Below are positions 2,704-38,465 of a stretch of 38,465 nucleotides of DNA, piece by piece (the stretch's first letter is position 1; every line of letters starts with the position of its first letter). The notes below the pieces were generated by a model that saw nothing but the letters and a program-made list of their open reading frames with translations, searched no databases and was not told the origin of the DNA. The translations under genes were made by a program, and so were the position numbers. Source of the DNA: Bacteroidota bacterium (GTDB lineage Bacteria > Bacteroidota > Bacteroidia > AKYH767-A > OLB10); assembly GCA_025352785.1 (NCBI GenBank), contig JANXSD010000141.1, positions 1 through 38,465 on the forward strand, in the 5' to 3' direction.

Positions 2704-3801
2704 ATGTACAAAAAAAGCTTATTCCTTCTTCTGGCAGCCGTTGCCACACTGCCTATCAGCCTATTTGCTCAGGCACCAAAATACAGTAATGATTTCCTTG
2801 CCATTGGGGTAGGGGCTAAAGCGCTTGGCATGAGTGGTGCGCAATCTTCCGTTGTAGATGATGTTACAGCTGGCTATTGGAACCCCGCAGGCTTATCGCT
2901 TGTGAAGGCCAACATTCAAATTGCAGCCATGCATAACGAATATTTTGCTGGCATTGCCAAATACGATTATGTGGCCATTGCTGCTCCTATTGATGCAACA
3001 CGTACCATTGGATTTTCTGCCATCCGTTTCGCTGTTGATGATATTATTGACTCAACAAATTTGCTTGATAAAGATGGCAATGTGGATTATGATCGTTTAA
3101 GAACATTTTCTGCAAGTGATTATGCCTTCTTATTTTCTTATGCGCAAAAAATGAAAATTGAAGGATTGCGTGTTGGAGGAAATGTGAAAGTAATTCATCG
3201 TAAGGCGGGCGACTTTGCACAAGCGTGGGGATTTGGTTTTGATCTAGGAGCGCAATACGATCGTAAGAAATGGAAATTCGCTGCAGTTGGAAAAGATGTT
3301 ACTTCTACTTTTAATGCATGGACCTATAACACATCAAGTATCGAAGAAGTATTTAATAAAACAGGAAATGAAATTCCGGAAAATGGTTTAGAAATTACAT
3401 TACCACGATTAATTTTAGGGATGAGTTACAAAACAAATATTACCAAGAAAATCACGTTTCAGCCTGCCTTAGATCTCGATCTTACTTTTGATGGAAAACG
3501 TAATGTTCCAATCAAAACAAATGTATTAAGTATCGATCCGAAAGTGGGCCTTGAATTTGGCTATGATGATTTCATCTTTTTACGTACCGGAATTCAGAAT
3601 ATTCAACAAGTAAAAAATATAGATCAATCAACATCGACTACAGTTCAACCAAACCTTGGCGTAGGAATTAAATTGAATAATATTAGTATTGATTATGCAT
3701 TGACAAATATTGGTGGAGGAGCGGAATCATTGTATTCAAATGTTTTCTCACTTCGCTTCAATATAAATAAGCAGAAAAAATCTGGTACTGCACAAAATTA
3801 A
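2704..3801 (+). CDS. PorV/PorQ family outer-membrane beta-barrel protein (T9SS-associated)
   Basis: Signal peptide MYKKSLFLLLAAVATLPISLFAQ; SNDFLAIGVGAKALGMSGAQSSVVDDVTAGYWNPAGLS is the PorV/PorQ/UPF0164-type N-terminus; lies 30 bp upstream of the C25 protease gene. Confidence 0.8.
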   Translation: MYKKSLFLLLAAVATLPISLFAQAPKYSNDFLAIGVGAKALGMSGAQSSVVDDVTAGYWNPAGLSLVKANIQIAAMHNEYFAGIAKYDYVAIAAPIDATRTIGFSAIRFAVDDIIDSTNLLDKDGNVDYDRLRTFSASDYAFLFSYAQKMKIEGLRVGGNVKVIHRKAGDFAQAWGFGFDLGAQYDRKKWKFAAVGKDVTSTFNAWTYNTSSIEEVFNKTGNEIPENGLEITLPRLILGMSYKTNITKKITFQPALDLDLTFDGKRNVPIKTNVLSIDPKVGLEFGYDDFIFLRTGIQNIQQVKNIDQSTSTTVQPNLGVGIKLNNISIDYALTNIGGGAESLYSNVFSLRFNINKQKKSGTAQN

Positions 3802-3831
3802 TAGAATTTAAATTTCTTTAACAGGAATAAC

Positions 3832-6800
3832 ATGCGCAAGCTCTACTTATCTCTACTCTGCTTTTTTAGTTTTACCGTTTTGGTACAAGCACAGCCTTAT
3901 CATAATGAATGGATTCCATTTGCAACCGGACAGTCGTACTCATCACAGCAATATTATAGAATTGCTATTTGGAAAGAGGGGATTTATCGAGCTACCTACA
4001 ATGATTTATTAAACAAAGGTGTACCTGTTAGCACATGGTTTAATCCACTTCGTTATCAAATTTTCAATAATGGTAAAGAGCAATTTATTCAGGTTGTTGA
4101 TGTAAACACAAATAATATTTTTGATGTTGGAGATTACATTGAATTTTATGGCAAAGGTAATGATGGATTATTGGATGCTGAGATTTATGATTATCCAACT
4201 AGTCAGCCGAATAGTAATGCAAGTTTATTTAATGATACAGCATCCTATTTTTTAACCTACAATCCATTTTCGCTTTCTAATCGACGAATGCCAATAGAGT
4301 CTGATATAAATTATGCTGGATATACTCCAGAGCCTTATGCAATTCATACCGATATTAAAAACTATTTCGATAATTATAATATTGGTTATCGTGATGGAAA
4401 CAGTGTTGGAGATAATCCTTACACTGTTGGGGAGGGATATTATTCGAATGGAGCCTCAAAAAGCTCTTCAATAGGATACTCTTTTACTACGCAAAATTAT
4501 TTACCATCAGGTCCGGCACCGACTGCTGAAATAACGTTGATAGGAGCGAATAGAAATCCACATCCTTATGAAGTTAGAAGTGGAACAGATGTACTGATTA
4601 ACAATTTAATTTATGGATATCAATTGGCTCGTCATGGATTATCGCCAGTAAATTTGCCCATCAATGGAACCTATCCTATTTCACTCGTACCTTTAGATGA
4701 TGGCGATCCAAACAATGCAAATTACATGCAGATTGCTTATATAAAATTATCCTACCCACGTAGTTTAGATTTTGCTTCAGAAACATTTCCACAGTCGTTT
4801 TCCATTAATGCTAGCGGAGCTAAGGCCTATTTAGAATTATCAAATACAACACTATCGAATCCTCGAATGTATGTGATAGCTGGAGATACTGTTAAGTATG
4901 TACTACTTAATCAAACTTCACAACCATTACGCACATTAATAACATCCAACGGATTTTCGCAAACGTGTTACCTGTTAGATAATAGTCAGATATTTTCTAT
5001 GACAAATAATGCAACAATTGCATCCGTAAATAATAATCCTGATCCAAATATTAATTCGCGTTTCACGAATTTTTTAACAGTAGGAGTTAATAAGGATTTT
5101 CTGATTGTTTCCAATAAAGTATTGTGGAATGGTGCATCTGCGTATGCAAATTATCGTACGTTATCTGGCCATCCTTCATTACTTGCAGATGTTGATGAAT
5201 TGTATGATCAGTTTGCCTGGGGAGTTCATAAAGATCCATTAGCAATTAGAAAGTTTGCCGACTTTATGATTGATAATTTTCATTCTGTTCCTAAATATTT
5301 ATTGTTGATTGGAAAATCTGTTACATCGATGGATGCACGATCAGGAACTAATAATGCAATAAATTTGGTGCCTACTTTTGGTGAGCCGCCATCCGATCAA
5401 ATGTTCACTGCTAAATTAAATACTAGTGAATATAAACAAGAGCTAGCTACGGGGCGAATTTCAGCTTGGGAGGAAGCGGATGTAACAGCATATCTCAATA
5501 AGTTAATATCGTTTGAGCTGCAACAAAAACAACCTCCAGCTCTCTGGATGAAAAATGTATTGCACTTTGGGGGAGGTAGTAATATCAATGAACAAGATTA
5601 TCTTTCATCATTTTTAACAGTATATAAAAATATTATTGAAGACACCTTGTTTGGTGGAAAGGTGACTACATTTTTGAAAAGTTCAACATCTCCTATTCAA
5701 ATAAATCAGAGTCAGTATTTGCAACAGTTGATAGATAGTGGTTGTAGTATGATGACGTTTTTTGGACATGCCGCAGGATCTTCATTTGATGTTGCTACTG
5801 ATATTCCAGAAAATTATCATAACAAAGATCGTTATCCATTGATCCTTGCTAATTCATGCTACGTAGGAAACATTCATACAAGTTCGCGACAACTTAATGA
5901 ACGATTTGTGTTAGCTCCTGATAAAGGTGCTATCGCATTTCTAGCTGTTCCTGATGTAGGAGTTCCGGAAGTGCTTACTGATTATTCGGAAAAATTTCAT
6001 CGTGTATTGTTTCAAGAAGAATATGGTAAGTCGGTGGGAGAGTGTATGAAATCAACAGTAGCACAAATCATCACTCCCGATTATGCACGAAGAGGAGTAT
6101 GTATGAACATGACGTTACATGGAGATCCAGCGATTGTATTAAATTCTTATTCGAAACCAGATTATTTTGTGGCAAATTCCAGTATACTATTCGAACCTGC
6201 AAACATCACTACGGAATTGGATTCGTTTACCGTAAAAGTTGCAATATCCAATATTGGTAAGAATACAAATCAAACAATGAATGTTTTAATAAGTAGAACA
6301 TTTCCTGACCATGTAACAAAGAAAGATACCATATTTCATATACCATATATTTCTTATAGAGATACGGTAAGTATTAAACTTCCTGTCGATTTTAAAAATG
6401 GTTCAGGGATAAATGATTTCCTTGTTACCGTTGATGTATATGATGAAGTAGATGAGATTGACAACTTTATTAATAACAATGCAAGAGCACAATTAATCAT
6501 TAACTCTACTGATATTAATCCAGTTTATCCTCAAAAATATTCTATCATCCCCAACGGTACGTTATCATTAAAGGCAACTACTGCAGACTTGTTTGCTAAA
6601 GCTAAAACATATCGTTTTGAGTTGGATACCACACCGTTTTTTAATTCTCCTAAATTGCAAATTGGAACTGTAGCAAATGCGTATGGTATTGTAAGTTGGA
6701 CTACTACCTCTTTACTCGATTCTAATATTGCCTATTTCTGGCGAGTTGGTAACGATTCGATCATGAATCCTGATACAAGTATTTCTAAAAAATATCAATG

Positions 6801-8859
6801 GCGTAATAGTTCATTCATGTACAAGCCGAATACTACAGGATGGTCGCAGGCACATTTTTACCAATTTCAAGAGAGCAATTTAACAAATGTTGTTTTAAAT
6901 AATAGTAATCGTGTTTTTGATTTTATATTATCCAATTATGCATTGGATATGACACATGTTTCCTATAAACCAAGTTACGATATCAATGGAGTAAATATGG
7001 ATTATGGAGGATGTACCGGAGCTCCACAATTAGCAATAGCCGTTTTAGATTCCATCGATTTTACGAATCCATGGACCTCCGATTCTTGTATTCATTTCTT
7101 TGGAAACTATAATTATTTCAGTTGTAATACGAATGTTGGACAATGTCGTCAACGACCAGATAAATATTTTCTTTTTAATACGGCTGACTCAACTCAGAAT
7201 GCAAATATGGTTGACATGATTAATAACAAGGTTCCTAATGGAGATTATATATTAGCATGGACGGTATTCCCAGTTAATTTCGCTTCGCTACCTGCGTCAG
7301 TGAATAATGCTTTTGTACAGCTTGGAGCATCGGCATTTCCCAACCTTACCATAGCGAATAAGTTTATGATGTTTTCACATAAAGGTTATCCCTCACAAAC
7401 TATATTTAAGCAAGGGCATTATCCAGATAGCATATTAAATATTAATTATTCGTTTGTTAGGAATTGGGATAAGGGATTTATCGAATCTACTGTTGTTGGC
7501 CCTGCTAAAAAGTGGACAACCTTTCATTGGGATTATCGACATTTAGAACCAATAAATTCACCTGATAGTATTGCATTACAAATTATTGGTATTGCACCTA
7601 ACAAACAAGAAGTGGTTTTAGTTGATAATATTTTTACTACTGCGGATATTGATTTATCAACAATTGATGCATTACAATATCCTAATTTAAAAATTAAGGC
7701 CTTCATTCAGGATTCTGTTTTTAGAACTCCAGCACAATTAAATCGTTGGCAAGTATATTATGAACCCGTTCCAGAAGGAGCTTTAAATACGCGTTATTAT
7801 TCTTTTTATAAGGATAGTATTCAAGAAGGAGATCAAGTGAAGCTAGATATGGCGTTTGAAAATATTAGTAGTGTTAAAATGGATACATTGTTAGTTGATT
7901 ATTTCATGTACGATGCAAATAATATTCGTCATTCACTTGGTTCTGTCAGAATGAAACGTGACCTTCCTCCTGGTGATACTGTGATGACGCATTTGTCATT
8001 TAGTTCGGCAGGTTATGCAGGCTTAAATAATCTTTGGATTGAAGCGAATCCACATCAAGACCAACCAGAGCAATATCATTTTAATAATCTTGCTAATTTG
8101 CACTTTAATGTTTCAAAGGATATCACTAATCCTTTGCTCGACGTTACATTTGATGGACTGCATATTTTGAATGGTGATATTGTTTCAAGCAAGCCCAATA
8201 TTCATATTCAATTGATGGATGAAAATAAATACATCGTATTGAATGATACTGCTGATTTTCGAGTGAGTTTAATAAATCCATCTGGTGCTTCACGCTTCCT
8301 GAATTTTGAACCAACGTCTGGTTCAAGTTCTGATAATGCTAAATTGAAATGGACACCTGCAACATTGCCCAGCAATAGTTTTAAAATAGATTATAGTCCA
8401 TTTTTAACGCAAGACGGTGTGTATACTTTAGATGTTCAAGCTACTGATAAATCAGGAAATTTATCCGGACTAAACGATTACCGAATTCAATTTGAAGTGA
8501 TAAATAAAAGCACTATCACTGAAGTGATAAATTATCCTAATCCATTTTCTACTTCTACGCGATTTGTATTTGTTTTAACGGGATCAGAAACACCAAGTGA
8601 ATTTAAAATTCAAATTATGACGGTAACTGGAAAAATTGTTCGTGAGATAACGAAGGATGAATTAGGCCCGTTACATATTGGAAGAAATTTAACAGACTAT
8701 GCGTGGAACGGTAAAGATGAATTTGGAGATCAATTAGCAAATGGAGTTTACTTATACCATGTAGTTACGAAAATTGATGGAAATAAAATTGAAAATCGCG
8801 ATGTAGGTATTGATAAATATTTTAAACGTGGTTGGGGAAAGATGTATTTGATGCGATAA
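3832..8859 (+). CDS. C25-family (gingipain-like) cysteine peptidase, putative T9SS sortase PorU/PorU2-like, with FlgD-like C-terminal domain
   Basis: 1675 aa; signal peptide; C25 His/Cys region MMTFFGHAAGSSFDVATDIPENYHNKDRYPLILANSCYVGNIHT; C-terminus NYPNPFSTSTRFVFVLTG...YAWNGKDEFGDQLANGVYLYHVVTK (FlgD-like Ig fold/T9SS CTD). Confidence 0.8.
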   Translation: MRKLYLSLLCFFSFTVLVQAQPYHNEWIPFATGQSYSSQQYYRIAIWKEGIYRATYNDLLNKGVPVSTWFNPLRYQIFNNGKEQFIQVVDVNTNNIFDVGDYIEFYGKGNDGLLDAEIYDYPTSQPNSNASLFNDTASYFLTYNPFSLSNRRMPIESDINYAGYTPEPYAIHTDIKNYFDNYNIGYRDGNSVGDNPYTVGEGYYSNGASKSSSIGYSFTTQNYLPSGPAPTAEITLIGANRNPHPYEVRSGTDVLINNLIYGYQLARHGLSPVNLPINGTYPISLVPLDDGDPNNANYMQIAYIKLSYPRSLDFASETFPQSFSINASGAKAYLELSNTTLSNPRMYVIAGDTVKYVLLNQTSQPLRTLITSNGFSQTCYLLDNSQIFSMTNNATIASVNNNPDPNINSRFTNFLTVGVNKDFLIVSNKVLWNGASAYANYRTLSGHPSLLADVDELYDQFAWGVHKDPLAIRKFADFMIDNFHSVPKYLLLIGKSVTSMDARSGTNNAINLVPTFGEPPSDQMFTAKLNTSEYKQELATGRISAWEEADVTAYLNKLISFELQQKQPPALWMKNVLHFGGGSNINEQDYLSSFLTVYKNIIEDTLFGGKVTTFLKSSTSPIQINQSQYLQQLIDSGCSMMTFFGHAAGSSFDVATDIPENYHNKDRYPLILANSCYVGNIHTSSRQLNERFVLAPDKGAIAFLAVPDVGVPEVLTDYSEKFHRVLFQEEYGKSVGECMKSTVAQIITPDYARRGVCMNMTLHGDPAIVLNSYSKPDYFVANSSILFEPANITTELDSFTVKVAISNIGKNTNQTMNVLISRTFPDHVTKKDTIFHIPYISYRDTVSIKLPVDFKNGSGINDFLVTVDVYDEVDEIDNFINNNARAQLIINSTDINPVYPQKYSIIPNGTLSLKATTADLFAKAKTYRFELDTTPFFNSPKLQIGTVANAYGIVSWTTTSLLDSNIAYFWRVGNDSIMNPDTSISKKYQWRNSSFMYKPNTTGWSQAHFYQFQESNLTNVVLNNSNRVFDFILSNYALDMTHVSYKPSYDINGVNMDYGGCTGAPQLAIAVLDSIDFTNPWTSDSCIHFFGNYNYFSCNTNVGQCRQRPDKYFLFNTADSTQNANMVDMINNKVPNGDYILAWTVFPVNFASLPASVNNAFVQLGASAFPNLTIANKFMMFSHKGYPSQTIFKQGHYPDSILNINYSFVRNWDKGFIESTVVGPAKKWTTFHWDYRHLEPINSPDSIALQIIGIAPNKQEVVLVDNIFTTADIDLSTIDALQYPNLKIKAFIQDSVFRTPAQLNRWQVYYEPVPEGALNTRYYSFYKDSIQEGDQVKLDMAFENISSVKMDTLLVDYFMYDANNIRHSLGSVRMKRDLPPGDTVMTHLSFSSAGYAGLNNLWIEANPHQDQPEQYHFNNLANLHFNVSKDITNPLLDVTFDGLHILNGDIVSSKPNIHIQLMDENKYIVLNDTADFRVSLINPSGASRFLNFEPTSGSSSDNAKLKWTPATLPSNSFKIDYSPFLTQDGVYTLDVQATDKSGNLSGLNDYRIQFEVINKSTITEVINYPNPFSTSTRFVFVLTGSETPSEFKIQIMTVTGKIVREITKDELGPLHIGRNLTDYAWNGKDEFGDQLANGVYLYHVVTKIDGNKIENRDVGIDKYFKRGWGKMYLMR

Positions 8860-36130: not shown

Positions 36131-36138
36131 TAGGTTTG
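36131..36138 (+). promoter_or_regulatory. Bacteroidota-type -7 element TAnnTTTG (TAGGTTTG)
   Basis: Exact match to TAnnTTTG located 26 bp upstream of ATG 36165; no convincing -33 TTG found. Confidence 0.35.
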
Positions 36139-36164: not shown

Positions 36165-36272
36165 ATGAAACCAACAACCAACATTAAATGCGCTGCTTCG
36201 AAAGCCGAACCAGCTATCAGCTATCAGCTATCAGCTATCAGCTATCAGCTATCAGCTATCAGCTATCTTTAA
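36165..36272 (+). other. Leader reading frame from ATG 36165 through the heptamer repeat, terminating at TAA 36270-36272 in this repeat state
   Basis: Translates as MKPTTNIKCAASKAEPAISYQLSAISYQLSAISYL*; AT-rich leader TAAATATAATTTTT immediately before ATG. Confidence 0.45.
36211..36267 (+). repeat. Perfect heptanucleotide tandem repeat (CAGCTAT)x8 plus 1 nt
   Basis: Read directly: 57 bp of uninterrupted 7-bp periodicity; no stop codon in any + frame, but TAG/TGA on the - strand. Confidence 0.98.
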
Positions 36273-36360
36273 ATTTAAGAGCGAAAAATTAGGTAATCTC
36301 TTAATCCAAAGAGTAAGGAATTTACTCTTAAAAGAACCCCATTTTAGGAAACTCAGTTTA

Positions 36361-38465
36361 ATGTGTAGTTTAACTATATTAATGTTTATTTCTAGTATTT
36401 TAAACGCCCAACAAGCAACATGGCGTATTGGAGATACTGAAATTGAATTTGGCGCAAGTTCCATATCTTCAAGCATCGTTGGATCCGATCCTTTTAATAC
36501 TTACGGTTATAATTCAATGACGGATCCTTCAGGAAAAATAATGTTTTATGTTGATAACGGTAGCGTATTCTTAGGAAACGGAACTTTAATTGGTAACATT
36601 ATGGTTGATTATTACGCTAATAATGTTCTTAGTACTAAAAAACTAGGTGGATATCCTGAAATTTGTATCGTGCCTAAACCAGGTTCTTGTACTCATTATT
36701 ACATTATTGGTGGTTATGCAAAATATGAATCATCTAATTTTGGTACGGGTGGAACCGATCCCGATCTGGTTTTTGCAGAAATTGATTTAGAGAAACAAAA
36801 CCCTCTTTATCCTACTCCTAATTCAATTGGAAATTTTGTTGGTACTGCTTCAAACCCAAATGCAATTGCTCAGCCTGTTGTACCGGTTGGGGGTACTCGT
36901 TTTGGAAATTTATCATACCATACATCCGATATCCATTTGGCAGTAACCAGACTAAGAAGTGATGGTTCTAGATTCCTTTTCGTATCTCGTGGGTCTGAAA
37001 TTTATGAAGCATCCATTACTAGTAATGGATTTTCAACAGCATCCCTGTTGGGTTCTGTAGTAAATGCTGGTTCAGGATCAAGTAAAATCAAATCCGAGTT
37101 AGAAGTATACGAGCCAGCTAATATTATGCAAAATGGTTATAAATTAGCAGTGCCTAGTGGATCAAGTGCAAGTTATATATCATTAGTTACAATTAGTTAT
37201 AATGGAACTGGAATCACTAATCAAGTTACTCTACCACCTTTTGCTGCTGCTCAAAATAATCCATTAAAAGGACTTGAGTTTAGTCCGAATGGCCAATATG
37301 TTTATGCCACATTTACCGATGGTGATTATTTACGTTGTTTTAATAGTACTACTGGTGCTCAAGTTGCATTACCACTTATTACTCAAAGTAATCTTAATGA
37401 TTTTAAATATTCAATGATTGAAGCAAATGCTGATGGGAATTTTTCTGTTATTAATCCCGGTGATGTAAATACAAATACGTTATCTGAATTAGGACAAATT
37501 ATTAATCCTAATACTCCATCTTTATGTACGTTTCAAAGGCATACTGTTGATTGGCAAAATAATTATGCTTTTACAAATGGACAAACAGGAAATATTATCG
37601 GAACATTTTATTACCATGGTAATGACAATGCTCAAATTGGGGTATTGCCTGATCAAATTGATGGAAGTATTAATGACCCACTTAGCCCCGAACACGAAGA
37701 GGAATGTTGTAATTTCTTTAAAGATTTTGATGTAAAATATTTTACTCTAGATCATTCTGAAACATGGACGGGTTCTAATAACGGAATTAATAATGGGTCA
37801 CCAGTTGTATTGATAAAAAACGAACTAAGAGTTCAATCTGGAGTTACATTAAATGTAGAAGATATTAAATTTATCTTTGGATTGCATGCTCGATTGATTC
37901 TTGAACCAGGTGCTACATTAATTTCTCATGGTTGTACTTTTACTGGAAATGAGGCGTGTTTAGCCATGTGGGATGGAATTTTTGTACAGAGTGATTTAAC
38001 AACTAGACTAGCAGCAAATGTTTTTATGGATGATAATAATAATGGACGAAGAACAATTGTTGAACATTCAATTTATGGTGTAAACGTAGGTTGTGTACCT
38101 GAAAATATTTTCAAAATAGCTCCTGGTGGATATATCAATTTAAATCATGTTTCGTTCGAAAATAATACTACATCAATTATTTATTGGGGTCACCCATTGA
38201 ATGGTAATCAATCACTAGTTAATAATTGTGATTTTAAAGCTGATTATTACAATGGTGGTTTTGGAAAAATGTGGTTCCCATTTACCGGTCAAAAGCCATC
38301 AACATTCATTTCTGCTTTTAATGAAAATGTCCAAAACATTGCATTTACTGGAACTAATACTTTTGACCAAGCTGAAATCGCTTTTAGTATTACTGATTGT
38401 GAAAATATGGAAATAAATCAATGTCATATTTCAAATTGTCATTTTGGAATTCATGTGAATAATAC
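36361..38465 (+). CDS. Large secreted surface protein (beta-propeller-like N-terminal half, right-handed beta-helix-like C-terminal half), truncated by window end; not in the supplied ORF track
   Basis: Manual translation from ATG 36361 gives MCSLTILMFISSILNAQQATWRIGDTEIEFGASSISSSIVGSDPFNTYGYNSMTDPSGKIMFYVDNGSVFLGNG...; no stop through 38465 (about 701 codons). The same frame is also open upstream to 36169. Confidence 0.85.
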   Translation, partial: MCSLTILMFISSILNAQQATWRIGDTEIEFGASSISSSIVGSDPFNTYGYNSMTDPSGKIMFYVDNGSVFLGNGTLIGNIMVDYYANNVLSTKKLGGYPEICIVPKPGSCTHYYIIGGYAKYESSNFGTGGTDPDLVFAEIDLEKQNPLYPTPNSIGNFVGTASNPNAIAQPVVPVGGTRFGNLSYHTSDIHLAVTRLRSDGSRFLFVSRGSEIYEASITSNGFSTASLLGSVVNAGSGSSKIKSELEVYEPANIMQNGYKLAVPSGSSASYISLVTISYNGTGITNQVTLPPFAAAQNNPLKGLEFSPNGQYVYATFTDGDYLRCFNSTTGAQVALPLITQSNLNDFKYSMIEANADGNFSVINPGDVNTNTLSELGQIINPNTPSLCTFQRHTVDWQNNYAFTNGQTGNIIGTFYYHGNDNAQIGVLPDQIDGSINDPLSPEHEEECCNFFKDFDVKYFTLDHSETWTGSNNGINNGSPVVLIKNELRVQSGVTLNVEDIKFIFGLHARLILEPGATLISHGCTFTGNEACLAMWDGIFVQSDLTTRLAANVFMDDNNNGRRTIVEHSIYGVNVGCVPENIFKIAPGGYINLNHVSFENNTTSIIYWGHPLNGNQSLVNNCDFKADYYNGGFGKMWFPFTGQKPSTFISAFNENVQNIAFTGTNTFDQAEIAFSITDCENMEINQCHISNCHFGIHVNN

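Follow-up and report, generated by a model that had tools for sequence, protein, structure and literature searches.

A heptanucleotide tract in the leader of a T9SS cargo gene, a probable translational phase-variation switch in a Bacteroidota bacterium

The best-known cases of repeat-driven phase variation come from pathogens adapted to a host. At the hmw locus of Haemophilus influenzae, a heptanucleotide tract located in the promoter grades transcription. In the autotransporters AutB and AutA, known from Neisseria and Haemophilus, the start codon is immediately followed by AAGC repeats, within the DNA of the signal sequence, and AutB of Neisseria is nearly always OFF with its gene intact (PMC5118866). 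For Bacteroides, passages of a 2025 review describe phase variation as DNA inversion driven by recombinases (PMC11868660). The heptamer TAACTGA has been described as a dispersed repeat of Beggiatoaceae, Cyanobacteria and a few Bacteroidetes (MacGregor 2015, PMC4679880).

We analysed a window of 38,465 nucleotides, the entire contig C80 of a draft Bacteroidota genome (3.46 Mb, 197 contigs), in which an array of CAGCTAT units precedes a large gene for a T9SS cargo. The nearest known mechanism for the switch that we propose here is that of Neisseria AutB. In both cases non-triplet repeats lie in the DNA that encodes the signal sequence of a large exported protein, the gene is intact and mostly OFF, and the ON and OFF states would arise by slipped-strand mispairing, which has been demonstrated experimentally in AutB/AutA and is only inferred for the window locus. 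The systems differ in that AutB/AutA combine a tetranucleotide with a type V autotransporter in Proteobacteria of the human airway, whereas the window combines a heptamer with a T9SS cargo. With hmw the locus shares a heptanucleotide tract that would govern a large surface protein, but the hmw tract is in the promoter and the window tract in the reading frame. According to those passages of the review, Bacteroides likewise offers ON/OFF variation of surface structures in Bacteroidota, through recombinase-driven inversion and not through the repeat slippage proposed here. TAACTGA repeats and cyanobacterial STRRs are also 7-bp direct repeats, known in some Bacteroidetes, and the window heptamer, which reads TAGCTGA on the other strand, is one base away from TAACTGA. 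In contrast to those repeats, which occur many times per genome and mainly between genes, the window has one array, in a coding leader and in the stop-free orientation. The unit sequence is already known, and what differs is its single-copy placement in a coding leader. A literature search limited to open-access papers returned no report of repeat-driven phase variation for T9SS cargo or Bacteroidota.

Anatomy and reading frames of the window locus

The array, by far the strongest tandem array of the window, consists of eight perfect CAGCTAT units plus one base, and no dinucleotide shuffle of the window attained its match count. All three of its frames on the forward strand are free of stops. 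The features of the locus are as follows:

36131 to 36138, forward strand: TAGGTTTG, a candidate -7 element of the Bacteroidota promoter type (TAnnTTTG), located 27 bp upstream of ATG 36165
36165 to 36167, forward strand: ATG (ATGAAA...), probably the main start; 7 or 10 units place it in the cargo frame, the assembled 8 do not
36188 to 36190, forward strand: another upstream ATG, sharing the cargo frame when the array has 6 or 9 units
36211 to 36267, forward strand: (CAGCTAT) x 8.1 array, the proposed slippage tract (tandem-repeat call, 100% matches, score 114)
36270 to 36272, forward strand: TAA closing the ATG 36165 frame at 8 units (frame reading of the sequence)
36290 to 36292, forward strand: TAG closing the remaining off frame (frame reading of the sequence)
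36340 to 36408, forward strand: signal peptide code assigned by eye, with an HFRK n-region upstream of ATG 36361 and the hydrophobic core LSLMCSLTILMFISSILNA
36361 to 38465, forward strand: first 701 codons of the T9SS type A cargo, which continues on contig C149

Because ATG 36165 and ATG 36361 are 196 bp apart, eight units leave the upstream start out of frame, and seven or ten bring it in; at eight it encodes a 35-aa peptide that ends at TAA 36270. The nearest upstream stop of the long frame is a TGA overlapping ATG 36165, and between the array and ATG 36361 the gene's frame contains no ATG, GTG or TTG. The original prediction, made from the sequence of the window, had described the array as (CAGCTAT)x8 and had led seven or ten units into the long frame, eight to TAA 36270 and the third frame to TAG 36290, all of which we could reproduce. 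Its frame account is correct for ATG 36165 and overlooked ATG 36188; since this second start adds six and nine units to the permissive states, two thirds of copy numbers are potentially ON from one or the other of the two starts. Gain or loss of a unit shifts an otherwise intact gene in or out of frame, the downstream frame being open as far as the sorting domain, and the tract has the sequence features expected of an SSR contingency locus: it is perfect, its unit is not a multiple of three, and the order is start codon, tract, gene. On whether further (CAGCTAT)n arrays exist, a question that the original prediction had also raised, a search of the whole genome returned no other array of three or more units, the single one lying within the leader frame, and no (CAGCTAT) array was present in the 60 relatives searched. 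The match of TAGGTTTG to TAnnTTTG, which we take to be the consensus of the Bacteroidota -7 element, is weak evidence for a promoter, being a single match in an AT-rich stretch with a chance that we estimate by hand at around a few percent.

The end of the contig falls within the cargo gene. C80 and C149 share an exact overlap of 141 bp, and C149 carries the rest of the gene, giving a protein of ∼1,170 aa counted from ATG 36361. The C149 part contains beta-helix/NosD-like repeats and a C-terminal T9SS type A sorting domain (TIGR04183, PF18962; 31.5 bits for TIGR04183 against a cut-off of 23). No Pfam family matched the first 701 aa. A sequence search of the PDB with the cargo gave only a weak match, to the 6-phosphogluconolactonase 4qrj (E 0.003), which hints at a possible beta-propeller in these 701 residues. 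The hydrophobic core, basic n-region and AQ site of the signal peptide were recognised by eye, without a predictor, and are complete only with a start upstream of ATG 36361: the basic residues of HFRK lie in the same frame just before this codon, and initiation at the codon itself would yield MCSLTILMFISSILNA, without a basic n-region. Also by eye, this stretch aligns with the ordinary signal peptides of homologues, those without a tract opening with sequences such as MKNLKNIIAALCIAWLTIIGNNTYAQ and MKTNFLTLSLILILSSVIFKGFGQ. In the ON state, the window protein would have a leader of unusual length, with ∼60 residues ahead of the hydrophobic core. The genome holds at least 150 T9SS sorting domains. 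Two adjoining genes place T9SS-related machinery on the contig of the proposed switched cargo itself (2704-8859):

2704 to 3801, forward strand: PorV2-type protein of the type IX secretion/sorting system (NF052325, above cut-off)
3832 to 8859, forward strand: PorU2-type sortase-like protein, peptidase family C25 (NF052324, above cut-off)

Leader tracts elsewhere in the genome

Arrays of at least five copies with units of 5 bp or more were sought in a sample of ∼1.17 Mb (34%) of the same genome. Outside the window the scan found four, namely an octamer x5.9 on C51, CAGTCAC x7.6 on C52, CAGTCAC x8.3 on C64 and an octamer x8 on C86. Runs of C or G of ten or more occur only twice in the genome, on C83 and C151, and both lie in leaders of secreted-protein genes. 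The tracts found in such leaders are:

C51, 17277 to 17323: octamer x5.9
C52, 107 to 159: heptamer CAGTCAC x7.6
C64, 1 to 58: heptamer CAGTCAC x8.3
C83, 4009 to 4018: C10 tract
C151, 1967 to 1976: G10 tract

The layout of ATG, tract, signal peptide and cargo is thus common to at least five other secreted-protein genes. A T9SS type A domain scores above the NCBIfam cut-off in four of the five sister products, and that of C83 has DUF7948 and beta-propeller repeats instead. Start and phase could be read in four of the five loci; each of these is assembled in the OFF state, with ON a single unit away, as in the window locus, and the fifth, on C64, lies on a contig that begins inside the array, so that its start is not readable. 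The original prediction held that a heptamer switch would be unusual, which fails for this genome. An order-wide search with the C52 protein recovered nothing but paralogues in this genome. At the end of C47 we noticed a CAGTCAC leader of ∼3.4 units, preceded by DNA that is almost the same as the DNA upstream of the C52 tract, and on C124 a paralogue with a few octamer-like units in its leader. The array on C86 (TTAATGGG) was rejected as a leader tract, having stops in every frame; at 3671-3734 of this contig the octamer CCCATTAA x8, with degenerate copies, stands at the contig end and looks intergenic.

Placement of six of the seven tracts of the genome in leaders would occur by chance with p 5e-13 to 2e-11, assuming 150 to 284 cargo genes and leaders of 150 bp. 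This count is optimistic because it includes the window locus, which prompted the search; without it, five of six tracts lie in leaders (p roughly 2e-9, calculated by hand).

Tracts in the leaders of homologues

In a profile search, 29 of 395 Bacteroidia genomes contained homologues, as did 26 of the 45 genomes of genus g31. The closest full homologue belongs to another genus of the same family and is 29% identical. It carries (TC)22 between ATGAAAAATTCC and the signal peptide, out of frame as assembled and in frame at 21 or 24 units, and this tract is the sole (CT)10 tract of that genome. For 50 homologues with sufficient upstream DNA, we inspected the stretch of 210 nt that leads up to the estimated cleavage site. 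A frame-shifting tract was present in 16 of these leaders, compared to 1 of 498 coding windows and 3 of 227 windows taken further upstream (Fisher p ∼3e-17 and ∼9e-11, respectively). These values are optimistic because the homologues share ancestry and are not independent samples. No such tract was found in the remaining 34 of the 50 leaders. The recurrence and enrichment of leader tracts are observed, as are the anatomy and frames of the window locus, and with the (TC)22 homologue and the sister genes they lend the phase-variation reading of the original prediction good comparative support.

The tracts of homologue leaders comprise poly-C, poly-G, TC and other types. Those of g31 are poly-C or poly-G, mostly of 9 to 15 bases and once of 21, within the signal-peptide code, and a change of one or two bases is enough to complete the signal peptide, as in MKTHNLLKGLLVAAFLAPPPLNPLVGAGLLMAQ. 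Several of these genomes have few runs of at least ten C or G; G102 and G424 have two distinct ones each, and one of each pair is in the leader of the homologue. A codon-position test on g31 leaders found too few differences. Tract lengths differ between species and between paralogues, an indirect indication only, in the absence of reads or conspecific strains.

Other repeats were kept apart from this count. The (CT)10 tracts of G006 and G046 lie outside the leaders of secreted proteins, and the homologue of G025 (C4) was set aside since it has a mid-gene frameshift without a repeat tract, due to sequencing error or decay. Poly-T runs before AT-rich homologues (G199, G169, G388) were not counted as frame switches. 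In G073 (C61, C40), two paralogous homologues have (AG)23.5 and (GA)20, respectively, ∼140-150 bp upstream of their frames; these tracts were left out of the frame-switch count, and it is possible that they act as switches of promoter spacing rather than of frame. In g31 genomes, some other poly-C/G runs directly precede hydrophobic segments of proteins outside this family; the genus may possess an extensive set of such switches on exported proteins.

Throughout, the units of leader tracts are of 1, 2, 7 or 8 bases, and none is divisible by three. Despite the out-of-frame leaders, the downstream frames remain open for hundreds to more than 1,000 codons, and the first in-frame ATG downstream is usually within or past the signal-peptide core. 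Nearly all tract loci sit one or two units away from ON. Among ∼21 loci to which a start could be assigned, only one or two are ON (19-20 OFF), against one third expected (p ∼0.002 to 0.013). This OFF bias may reflect a cost of expression, or it could arise from the misassignment of some starts.

Interpretation and alternative explanations

We interpret the window locus as a translational phase-variation switch (contingency locus), with a probability that we put at roughly 0.86; slippage, use of the upstream start, export and a bet-hedging benefit are inferences within this interpretation. Against it weigh the shortage of ON loci, the 34 homologue leaders without a tract, the kinship of the homologues and the length of the ON leader, and the window genome is represented by a single copy. 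Translation would begin at ATG 36165 (or 36188) and pass through the heptamer array, and seven or ten units (six or nine for ATG 36188) would link the start to the signal peptide and the frame of the T9SS-exported protein. The assembled eight-unit state would be OFF from ATG 36165. Slipped-strand mispairing would gain or lose 7-base units, so that a clone would hold both ON and OFF cells. Since other secreted-protein genes and Bacteroidia homologues have the same layout with unrelated tracts, the window locus would be one member of a switchable set; these sequence comparisons make it very likely that its array belongs to a group of on/off switches of differing repeat kinds, through which exported proteins are turned on and off at random in this bacterium and its relatives.

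The array could instead be an inert dispersed heptamer of the cyanobacterial STRR or TAACTGA kind that lies before the gene by chance, an alternative that the original prediction had already raised. The motif is indeed widespread: the exact five-unit array was found in at least 117 stretches from many phyla, and among the matches listed 75 of the 90 interior arrays fall outside any long frame, in keeping with the dispersed habit of its one-base relative. That part of the alternative stands. Dispersed repeats are expected as many arrays per genome, mainly intergenic, which does not fit one array in a leader frame, in the stop-free orientation. We reject an inert heptamer as the main reading, and consider it unlikely, because homologues, and other genes of the genome, have unrelated tracts at this position. 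Even less weight goes to translation from ATG 36361, or re-initiation after TAA 36270, whatever the repeat number, with the array as a 5′-UTR that at most tunes expression. ATG 36361 is the first standard start after the array in the gene's frame, and in Beggiatoaceae a role in the control of translation has been proposed for heptamers close to start codons. But such a product would lack the basic n-region, the equivalent downstream ATG in several sister loci would remove most of the signal peptide, and a tuning array has no need for unit lengths that avoid multiples of three.

Full-length protein might also be made without any change of the DNA, if ribosomes shift frame or RNA polymerase slips at the tract. 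The predominance of OFF frames in assemblies would suit such recoding, as would the poly-C/G runs of homologues, which are plausible sites of polymerase slippage; heptamer and octamer arrays, however, are not recoding sites to our knowledge, and from the diversity of tract types we infer that DNA slippage is their common property. We consider recoding highly improbable. What we find hardest to credit is an error of assembly or copy number, or a decayed gene. The assembly is a draft without coverage data, and C64 and C47 end at or in arrays of this sort, but the perfect array of 57 bp is shorter than the 141-bp contig overlap and should therefore assemble, and decayed genes would not keep intact downstream frames over hundreds of codons, as many of these loci do.

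The phase-variation reading has a wider form, towards which we lean with only modest confidence: Bacteroidota that are not classical pathogens would carry genome-wide sets of phase-variable T9SS-exported proteins, with unrelated leader tracts that arose repeatedly, and these sets would be OFF by default, each cell displaying a small random subset of a large exported repertoire. If true, the usual OFF state of the reference copy would lead annotation pipelines to overlook such genes or to assign them a wrong start, and these bacteria would randomise their choice of exported proteins, perhaps against phages, predators or changing surfaces.
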